This document shows positions 12,592 to 15,856 of a stretch of DNA of 36,872 nucleotides, piece by piece (position 1 is the first letter of the stretch; every line of letters starts with the position of its first letter). This DNA is from Betaproteobacteria bacterium (GTDB taxonomy: Bacteria; Pseudomonadota; Gammaproteobacteria; Burkholderiales; Burkholderiaceae_C): NCBI GenBank assembly GCA_010030205.1, contig RGQD01000008.1:1-36872 (forward strand), written 5' to 3'. The position numbers were made by a program, and so were the translations under genes. Below the pieces are notes generated by a model that was not told the DNA's origin, did not search any database, and was given only the letters and a program-made list of their open reading frames with translations.

Positions 12592-13026
12592 TCAGAAGGG
12601 CTTGACCACTGTCAGCACCACGATGGCGGCAAACAGCAGCACCGAGACCTCGTTGAAGACGCGAAACCAGCGGTGGCTGCGACGGTTCGCGTGCTGCTCA
12701 AACCGGCGCAGGTGGCCACGGCACATGTGTAGGTAGCCGATCACCGCAACCACCCCCAGCAACTTGGCATGCAGCCAATAGCTGCCGGCAAAACGTGCCG
12801 CGCCAAAGCCCAGCCACAGCCAGAAACCCAGCGCCAGTGCGACGACCATCAGCAAGTTGGTAAATCGGTAGAGCTTGCGCGACATCAACAGCAAGCGTTC
12901 GCGCTCGGCGTGGCTGTCGTCGGGCACCATCGCCAGATTCACCAGCAGGCGCGGCAGGTAGAACAGGCCAGCGAACCAACTCGCGATAAAGACGATGTGG
13001 AAGGCCTTGATCCAGAGATAGTTCAT
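12592..13026 (-). CDS. hemJ: HemJ-like protoporphyrinogen oxidase (CopD family annotation)
   Basis: A 144-residue membrane protein with about four transmembrane segments. It begins MNYLWIKAFHIVFIASWFAG and continues LFYLPRLLVNLAM, the HemJ signature, with His10 at the conserved haem-binding position and LHAKLLGVVAVIGYLH further on. HemJ oxidises protoporphyrinogen IX to protoporphyrin IX. Many databases call such proteins CopD family. Location next to divergent hemB supports the haem assignment. The start at 13026 matches family N-termini. A terminator-like structure lies 50-80 bp upstream on the same strand. Confidence 0.85.
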   Translation of the reverse strand: MNYLWIKAFHIVFIASWFAGLFYLPRLLVNLAMVPDDSHAERERLLLMSRKLYRFTNLLMVVALALGFWLWLGFGAARFAGSYWLHAKLLGVVAVIGYLHMCRGHLRRFEQHANRRSHRWFRVFNEVSVLLFAAIVVLTVVKPF

Positions 13027-13074
13027 CGGCCGAATTATCGCGGCGAGACGGCAAGCGTGCGCGATCGAGCTGCC

Positions 13075-13189
13075 TAAAAAAGAACCCCAGTCACAGGGAC
13101 TGGGGCAGCAAGCTTTGACGTTGTTGAAACCCCAAAGCACCTGCTCAGGGAGGAAAAGCAGGGGACAACCACCTCACAGCAGCTGTCCA
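13075..13189 (-). ncRNA. Candidate structured small RNA or hemJ leader
   Basis: Between divergent hemB and hemJ, the minus strand can fold into four consecutive hairpins. These are GGACA/TGTCC (13188-13184 with 13167-13163), CCTGCT/AGCAGG (13162-13157 with 13145-13140), GCTTTG/CAAAGC (13138-13133 with 13117-13112), and a final CCCCAGTC/GACTGGGG (13105-13098 with 13092-13085) followed by six T residues. The second loop is UUUCCUCCCUG, complementary to a Shine-Dalgarno. A TAATAT -10-like hexamer lies at 13201-13196, but no good -35 is seen. It could be a free small RNA of about 115 nt or an attenuator in the hemJ leader. I do not recognise a known family. Confidence 0.5.
13076..13105 (-). terminator. 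Rho-independent terminator upstream of hemJ
   Basis: On the minus strand a perfect 8-bp stem CCCCAGTC/GACTGGGG with a 5-base loop is followed by TTCTTTTTT. It is the clearest intrinsic terminator in the window. There is no T-run in the plus direction. It would stop transcripts that start in the hemB-hemJ gap before they reach hemJ. Confidence 0.8.
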
Positions 13190-13290
13190 ATTTCAATATT
13201 AGCAGATTGACACGCCGAGTACCGAGCGAAGCGGCGACAGATTTTCTTGGCGCAAAGTCCGGCATGCCACGACCGTGCAAAATCGGATAA

Positions 13291-14325
<1,035 letters not shown>

Positions 14326-14343: not shown

Positions 14344-14796
14344 TCAGCGCCGATACGGGTCGGCAATGCCCAGGCTGAGCAAGATCGCGGTCTCCCGCGA
14401 CTCCATCGCCGCAGCCTCCTCATCGACCTCGTGGTCATAGCCCTGGGCGTGCAGTGCGCCGTGCACCAGCAAGTGAGCGTAGTGGTCGACGACAGCGATT
14501 CCAAGATCGATCGCTTCGCGCTCAAGCACACCGGCTGCGAGCACCAGATCGGCCTGCACGACCGGCTCATGCTCGTAATCGAAAGTCAGCACGTTGGTGG
14601 CGTAGTCCTTGCCACGGAAATCACGGTTCAGTGCCTGTCCCTCGTCATCACCGACGATGCGAACGGTGATCTCGGCGGGACACTCGAGCGCGGCGCGCAG
14701 CCAGCGCGCCACCTTGTGACGCTTCAGCAGCGCCCGGTGGCGCGCGTCGGCGAACTGCAGCGACAGCGTCAACTCGGGCTTGGCGATGCGGCTCAC
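14344..14796 (-). CDS. ybeY: Endoribonuclease / rRNA maturation factor YbeY
   Basis: A 150-residue YbeY, a metal-dependent factor in 16S rRNA 3'-end maturation and ribosome quality control. The zinc motif [11 protein letters not shown] gives His112, His116 and His122. [14 protein letters not shown] is the other conserved block. It overlaps the end of phoH by four bases (ATGA), the usual phoH-ybeY coupling. Confidence 0.95.
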
Positions 14797-15764
14797 GGTG
14801 TCGGATCCGCGGCACGCTTGGCTGCGTCATAGGCGTCGACGATTCGCGCGACCAGCGGGTGCCGAACCACATCGGCCGAGCTGAAACGCGTGAAAGCGAT
14901 GCCGGCAACGCCGGCGAGCACGCTTGCGGCATCGACCAGGCCACTGGCCGCGCCACGTGGCAAGTCGACCTGGCTGACGTCACCGGTGACCACCGCGCGC
15001 GAGCCGAAGCCGATGCGCGTCAGGAACATCTTCATCTGCTCGGGCGTTGTGTTTTGCGCTTCATCCAGGATCACGAACGAATGGTTGAGCGTTCGTCCGC
15101 GCATGAAGGCCAGCGGCGCGACCTCGAGCAAGCCTTTCTCGAACGCCACCGTGACACGCTCGAAACCCATCAGGTCGTAGAGCGCGTCGTAGAGCGGACG
15201 CAAATAGGGGTCAACCTTCTGCGTCAGGTCGCCCGGCAGAAAGCCCAGACGCTCGCCAGCCTCGACCGCTGGTCGGGTCAACACGATGCGTTGCACGCTA
15301 CCGCGCTCGAGCGCATCGACCGCGCAGGCCACCGCCAGAAAGGTCTTGCCGGTGCCCGCGGGCCCTATGCCCAGCGTGATGTCATGACTGAGAATGTTGT
15401 GCAGGTACTGCACCTGGCTGGGCGTGCGGCCGCGCAAGTCACTGCGCCGGGTGTGCAGGCTGATGGCCTCGGCGCCAGGCGGCAAGGCCGGTCTGGCGCC
15501 GTCGGGCGCAGCGCGCGCTTCCACCAAAGCGAGTTGCAAGGCGTCGCCCGGGATCGGCCGGGCTGCGCGCTCGTACAAGGACTGCAGCAGCGCCAGCGCA
15601 CGCGCCGCATCGAAGCGGGCGCCTTCGACCCCAAAAGCACCGCCGCGGCGGCTGATGCGCACTGACAGCGCCGCCTCGATGGCTCTCAGGTGTTCATCAA
15701 ATGCGCCACTCAGATGGGCAAGACGGGTGTTGTCGGTAGGCTCGAAGACGTGGCGAAGGATCAC
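14793..15764 (-). CDS. phoH: PhoH-like ATPase
   Basis: A 323-residue PhoH/PhoL-type protein. Walker A is GPAGTGKT at about residues 134-141 and Walker B lies in [31 protein letters not shown] and [21 protein letters not shown] are strong family blocks. The role is probably RNA-related ATPase activity, given the tie to ybeY. The GTG at 15764 gives [20 protein letters not shown], like family N-termini; a GTG at 15800 would add 12 unlikely residues. The usual upstream neighbour miaB is absent; a divergent sensor kinase gene is there instead. Confidence 0.93.
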
Positions 15765-15856
15765 AAAAGGGCAGCGCCAAGGCGCGCAACAAGATGGCAC
15801 AAGCTGTGGATTTTGCGACGAACGCCAGCGGCATGCACATCTGACAATTCGCAGTG

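Follow-up and report, generated by a model that had tools for sequence, protein, structure and literature searches.

The anti-hemB RNA of Burkholderia cenocepacia, ncS04, is described as a transcript of 105 nt with a 3' end determined by RACE, and seven qPCR conditions including low iron are reported to have caused no significant change (PMC5688073). ncS04 co-purified with Hfq, and its neighbour order is given as <- -> <- (PMC4603805). The anti-hemB RNA of B. pseudomallei has been entered as trans-acting (PMC3521395). hemB is described as the predicted target of Bc7, an Hfq-copurified RNA of B. cenocepacia (PMC6321483). Almost no biology on the anti-hemB family was found in literature searches, and its accession RF02837 was unmentioned in the papers searched.

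Small RNAs at the polA locus are better described. ErsA of Pseudomonas aeruginosa is located in the gap between polA and engB (PMC8575079). It is presented as depending on sigma22 and as functionally orthologous to Spot 42 (PMC8395346; sigma22 also in PMC6321483). sX13 of Xanthomonas lies downstream of polA. Its homologues were reported as absent outside the Xanthomonadaceae, and its authors raised the question of small RNAs at the polA locus in other bacteria (PMC3771888). For NcS27/BdhR1 and S17 of Bordetella, pairing with ribosome binding sites has been proposed (PMC5688073, PMC11722255). The anti-hemB family is known but little studied, and new here is its link to the polA-engB locus, which was not found in literature searches for a connection to Spot 42, ErsA and sX13.

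The RNA gene between hemB and hemJ

The window, i.e. the whole analysed stretch of 36,872 nucleotides from contig RGQD01000008.1 of a Betaproteobacteria bacterium, carries an RNA gene of the anti-hemB family on its minus strand. Family, structure, covariation, position and promoter motifs were computed. The whole transcript is placed at 13076..13189(-), with a presumed 5' end about 7 nt past the -10 box and a presumed 3' end at the U run. When the whole window was scanned against Rfam at gathering cut-offs, RF02837 (anti-hemB) was the sole match, at 13077-13165(-) with 62.9 against 49.5 bits; this is the family that the original prediction had left unrecognised. This 81-position model covers the three 3' hairpins. 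A covariance model built from 41 beta and class-level sequences, the window RNA among them (R1), matched the window only at 13076-13206 at E up to 1 (72.1 bits). The Betaproteobacteria toxic sRNA model RF02278 scored the RNA at 22.3 bits (cut-off 50) and the Spot 42 model RF00021 at 23.3 bits (cut-off 80); sX13 (RF02232) had no match in 12900-13400 at E up to 1.

The RNA gene adjoins hemB (13315..14325(+); NF006762, porphobilinogen synthase, 509 bits, NCBIfam cut-off 297) and diverges from it, the position that gave the family its name. Downstream on the same strand lies a hemJ-like gene (UPF0093, 12592..13026(-)), identified by PF03653 with 137.5 bits (cut-off 34.2). Its protein is below the NCBIfam HemJ cut-off (99.2 vs 138.05), and its start codon was chosen by the authors from the start of the Pfam match. 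YbeY and PhoH-like genes at 14344-15800(-) are convergent with hemB.

Four minus-strand hairpins ending in a U-run terminator had been predicted for this gap, and the folding agrees. RNAfold gave an MFE of -49.4 kcal/mol for 13077-13187(-) (z -4.56), equalled by 0 of 200 shuffles. Hairpin 1 (13163..13188(-)) lies outside the Rfam model; its stem, first given as 5 bp, comprises 11 pairs once G-U is allowed. Hairpin 2 (13140..13162(-)) contains the CU-rich loop UUUCCUCCCUG at 13146-13156, complementary to Shine-Dalgarno sequences as originally claimed and presumed to be the seed. Hairpin 3 occupies 13112..13138(-). The stem of hairpin 4 (13085-13105(-)) and the U run (13076-13081(-)) form an intrinsic terminator (13076..13105(-)), whose 3' end likely binds Hfq. 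The TAATAT box (13196-13201(-)), already noticed as -10-like, is part of an extended -10 promoter element, TGCTAATAT, at 13196..13204(-), recognised by the pattern TGNTANNNT.

Covariation was assessed in an alignment (A1) of 25 sequences with the window-type core, window included, out of 49 retained; two loci without a terminator match, duplicates and cut loci had been left out. Across the four hairpins 94.3% of 755 cells are paired, and both sides changed in 14 of 31 pairs, which provides the covariation in relatives by which the structure was to be checked. On each of five measures the observed value was reached by 0 of 500 shuffles, although kinship alone can let sequences beat shuffles where structure is absent. 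Partners slid by 1 to 3 columns lowered the pairing to 28.8-54.6%, in a control that favours the tested structure because its pairs were taken from the window sequence. Hairpin 1 is the best supported (both sides changed in 8/11 pairs, 92.7% of cells paired). The corresponding values are 3/6 and 96.7% for hairpin 3, and 3/8 and 90.1% for hairpin 4. Stem and loop (CCUCCC) of hairpin 2 show no variation across the 25 sequences, which were selected for this core type; this is uninformative on pairing but fits selection on sequence, as for a seed. In a larger alignment (A2, 48 sequences), hairpin 1 was found misaligned by eye and excluded from pair counts. The window RNA in itself is an ordinary member of a known family, while the history of the family is unexpected and testable.

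Neighbouring genes and promoters in relatives

RF02837 matched 35 of 40 genomes of relatives above its cut-off, the own genome included. The window's family is represented by 23 loci, from 22 of its 24 genomes (G006 and G021 without match) and from G146. hemB lies upstream on the opposite strand in 22/23 and hemJ follows on the RNA's own strand in 22/23, with engB at none; one neighbour each was not found at L009 and at L059, the latter at a contig end. Thirteen loci from 16 genomes stand for the other Burkholderiales, after G024 gave no match and the weak matches of G026 and G032 were dropped. There, engB adjoins the RNA in 13/13 (convergent downstream in 11/13), hemB in 10/13 and hemJ in 0/13, and the RNA sits between hemB and engB in 10/13. 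Second, weaker anti-hemB-like matches away from hemB, hemJ, engB and polA were obtained in G019 (L078, 44.0 bits) and G012 (L079, 33.5 bits), genomes that also carry the RNA copy beside hemB; they are possible paralogues.

GTDB places Burkholderiales within the Gammaproteobacteria, and for this reason the class-level genomes were taken as gammaproteobacteria. Twenty-eight class-level loci (L011-L038, several with short flanks) were returned automatically and form the unbiased count, since ten others (L081-L089, L091) were picked by hand; L090 was taken from the sX13 matches. engB or polA is present in the flank of 22/28 and both in 8/28, hemB or hemJ in none, and 6/28 have none of the four neighbours. 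hemB stands beside the RNA in 0/38 class loci. Among the class-level matches listed, own genome included, 63 of 122 rows have engB or polA as a neighbour and 32 have both, in a tally that holds one RNA match per genome except for three genomes with two, leaves out most further and tandem matches and treats genes missing from the lists as unlisted. Typically polA precedes the RNA on its own strand and engB follows on the opposite one; E. coli shows the same arrangement, strands included, with polA, spf and yihA (engB). Where engB was listed, the RNA adjoins it in 50 of 72 rows and is apart from it in 22; for polA the numbers are 45 and 31 of 76. The share beside engB or polA drops with match strength among the matches listed, from 22/36 (E under 1e-8) to 5/16 (E 1e-4 to 1e-3). 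Of the 124 class genomes with a match, 110 score below the Rfam cut-off; some of the weak matches are false, because sub-cut-off RF02837 matches also occurred in 3 of 14 control genomes, including Deinobacterium. On three named gammaproteobacterial contigs (L093, L097, L147) the RNA is beside engB, and on L144 (Proteobacteria) between polA and engB.

Several loci have additional features. Tandem RNA copies, two to five, occur at L091 (G302), L081 (G210), L157 (Nitrosospira briensis), L014, L017 and L027. A c-di-GMP-I riboswitch match (L021:2037-2121(-), 77.9 bits) lies inside a polA-engB locus. The alphaproteobacterial ar14 model has an overlapping match at L037:1497-1600(+) with 40.5 bits, below its cut-off of 58.8.

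The promoters differ between these groups. A sigmaE/AlgU-like pattern (GAACTT-like, 13-18 nt, then TCNNA or TCNA; the pattern was drawn up with the alignment already in view) was found upstream in 10/13 other Burkholderiales and in 27/38 class loci, ten of the 38 hand-picked, against 20/3044 control windows. It was found upstream of the RNA in 0/23 loci of the window's family. The extended -10 element precedes the RNA in 22/23 loci of this family, 0/13 other Burkholderiales, 3/38 class loci and 45/3044 controls. A search with the core pattern gave at least 120 stretches, of which 80 named loci were analysed. The sigmaE-like motif occurred in 24/33 loci with engB downstream, 1/30 with hemJ downstream and 5/17 others; the extended -10 occurred in 0/33, 17/30 and 2/17, respectively. 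The hemJ group includes Variovorax, Ramlibacter, Rhizobacter, Rhodoferax and Hydrogenophaga, and the engB group Burkholderia, Cupriavidus, Azoarcus, Dechloromonas and Nitrosospira. Burkholderia ambifaria and Burkholderia sp. TSV86 have engB, and the sigmaE-like pattern is unmatched there. Four loci from Pelomonas, Mitsuaria and Roseateles (L122, L123, L133, L159) carry the exact core but match no promoter motif and have none of hemB, hemJ, engB and polA in the surrounding 1.5 kb; they may hold a moved gene or a paralogue.

RpoE was matched in 39 of 40 genomes, including that of the window with 241.7 bits (cut-off 236.15). Loss of RpoE as the cause of the promoter change is unsupported: the window's genome has RpoE, so the change is unexplained by sigma-factor loss. 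The best RpoE matches score 235-265 bits in the window's family (e.g. G000:C502:11936-12511(-)) and 285-334 bits in those other Burkholderiales having one. The lower scores perhaps reflect an altered promoter preference.

Descent, targets and rival explanations

All 23/23 loci of the window's family share the exact 10-mer CTCCCTGAGC of hairpin 2, as do 11/13 of the order and 21/28 of the class (25/38 with those hand-picked), although the model search that found these loci favours it. CCTCCC is present in 23, 12 and 27 loci, respectively. Shared lineage of anti-hemB and the class-level polA-engB RNAs is strongly supported. For sX13 the support is moderate. Three of the 12 sX13-model matches, in G210, G121 and G273, coincide with anti-hemB matches, all three below the sX13 cut-off. 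A fourth sX13 match, in G176, lies between polA and engB. For Spot 42 the case is mainly positional. In 6.5 kb of E. coli DNA surrounding spf, R1 matched spf and nothing else, with 13.3 bits, a score that would not stand out genome-wide because matches near 13 bits have E above 1; the Spot 42 model matched 0/274 class genomes under strict filters. ErsA may be set beside anti-hemB by the published description of its locus and promoter.

Convergence is the rival that survives best and is nonetheless unlikely. Unrelated RNAs with C-rich loops would have arisen repeatedly at engB and polA, with anti-hemB of separate descent. Such loops and GC-rich terminators may arise easily, and the covariance-model search selects them. 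Nine of the 12 sX13-model matches coincide with no listed anti-hemB match, and in two sX13 genomes the sX13 site is the top R1 match but barely above noise (32.7 vs 31.5 and 25.8 vs 25.4 bits); the low score of Spot 42 points the same way. Against convergence stands the exact 10-mer at the three taxonomic levels, together with position, orientation and promoter type. Convergence is a fair explanation for Spot 42 and a poor one for the class-level polA-engB RNAs.

Target searches came up empty. AGGGAGG-N4-12-ATG occurs 4 times in the window's genome against 8 for the reversed control, without enrichment, and CAGGGAGGA-N3-11-ATG 0 times against 2. In relatives, the latter pattern occurs at 27 places in 7 of 8 genomes (2 reversed-control places, both in G000); these show little, because the pattern holds a Shine-Dalgarno sequence and one place (G015) is the RNA gene itself, read on its other strand. 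A repeated target candidate are DUF898 genes, present in 10/40 genomes and encoding membrane proteins. GGGAGG, complementary to the loop, stands directly before the assumed DUF898 start in 5/7 window-family genes (L241, L242, L244, L246, L247), a count that left out 3 of 10 loci, all outside the window's family. The DUF898 family had no match in the window's genome.

A cis-acting regulation of hemB, as the Rfam name implies, is unlikely, and somewhat less probable than convergence. The divergent hemB neighbour in 22/23 and 10/13 loci speaks for it, as does the predicted targeting of hemB by Bc7, should Bc7 correspond to ncS04. However, the RNA does not overlap the hemB coding sequence and is kept away from hemB in all class loci. 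Seed pairing with the hemB start region was predicted at -9.8 kcal/mol, weaker than the median of -11.1 for 500 random 81-nt window stretches, and hemB as a direct target is unsupported.

A terminator-controlled 5' leader of hemJ, attenuator- or riboswitch-like, had been offered as the alternative to a free RNA and fits the shared strand, the terminator about 50 bp before hemJ and the downstream hemJ in 22/23 window-family loci, but it is rejected as highly improbable: RNA and terminator are kept beside polA and with an opposite-strand engB downstream (11/13 other Burkholderiales), the GGGG of the proposed hairpin 3-terminator antiterminator is kept in only 3/25 A1 sequences, window included, so that terminator and antiterminator are not both conserved, and the B. 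cenocepacia homologue is described as a separate 105-nt transcript (PMC5688073).

A trans-acting free small RNA that pairs with Shine-Dalgarno regions fits best, and the free half of the earlier alternative stands. Very probably, the window RNA is a free trans-acting anti-hemB RNA with its own promoter, the Burkholderiales form of the polA-engB RNA, with a promoter changed in the window's family. Transcription would start from the extended -10 element and stop at the intrinsic terminator ahead of hemJ. Three covarying hairpins flank the invariant hairpin 2. Most likely, the loop of hairpin 2 binds Shine-Dalgarno regions in several mRNAs by base pairing and, together with Hfq, blocks their translation. 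By descent, the RNA would correspond to the polA-engB small RNA of other orders in the class. In the window's family the locus would have been rearranged, hemJ taking the place that engB has elsewhere, and the promoter would have become housekeeping-like; this direction of the changes is presumed. The sigmaE/AlgU-like promoter at polA-engB and at most other Burkholderiales loci suggests that the RNA there is probably an envelope-stress RNA like ErsA. The housekeeping-like promoter of the window's family suggests a probably constitutive RNA.

Comparison with known systems

The results suggest that anti-hemB represents the Spot 42/ErsA/sX13 locus in the Betaproteobacteria, as one branch of it. 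A wider proposal, for and against which the balance is about even, unites anti-hemB, ErsA, sX13 and Spot 42 in one lineage predating the beta/gamma split. It would have begun as a sigmaE-driven envelope-stress RNA at polA-engB; in the window's family this RNA would have left both its locus and its sigma factor and become a constitutive regulator, with every letter of the seed kept. Should anti-hemB, ErsA, sX13 and Spot 42 prove to be one gene, the work on Hfq, porins and carbon and envelope control by the latter three could be transferred to the Betaproteobacteria for testing. The question raised by the sX13 authors would receive a broad answer (PMC3771888). The promoter change would give an example from nature of a small RNA that drops out of a stress regulon while its seed stays the same.

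The window RNA resembles ncS04 in scoring above the anti-hemB cut-off, adjoining hemB, sharing loop and terminator and having a presumed length near 105 nt. It differs by the same-strand hemJ downstream (a convergent gene in ncS04), the extended -10 element and the covarying 5' hairpin beyond the model. NcS27/BdhR1 (RF02278) and S17 of Bordetella likewise have a CU-rich anti-Shine-Dalgarno region followed by a terminator hairpin, as described in PMC5688073 and PMC11722255. However, NcS27 and its homologues are given as genes apart from ncS04 in B. cenocepacia (PMC5688073), and S17 is described as adjoining other genes (PMC11722255).

ErsA, placed in the polA-engB gap and reported as sigma22-dependent, has counterparts in those homologues of the window RNA that lie at polA-engB and carry sigmaE/AlgU-like promoters. 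The window RNA itself adjoins neither polA nor engB, and its family, judged by motif alone, shows no ErsA-type sigma22/sigmaE promoter (0/23). sX13 has C-rich loops as well, and a position downstream of polA (L049, L050) is common to sX13 and the class-level homologues; the window stretch is unmatched by the sX13 model. With Spot 42, the class-level homologues have in common the order polA-RNA-engB and its strands. The window RNA lies between hemB and hemJ instead, and the polA-engB position is held by its class-level homologues.
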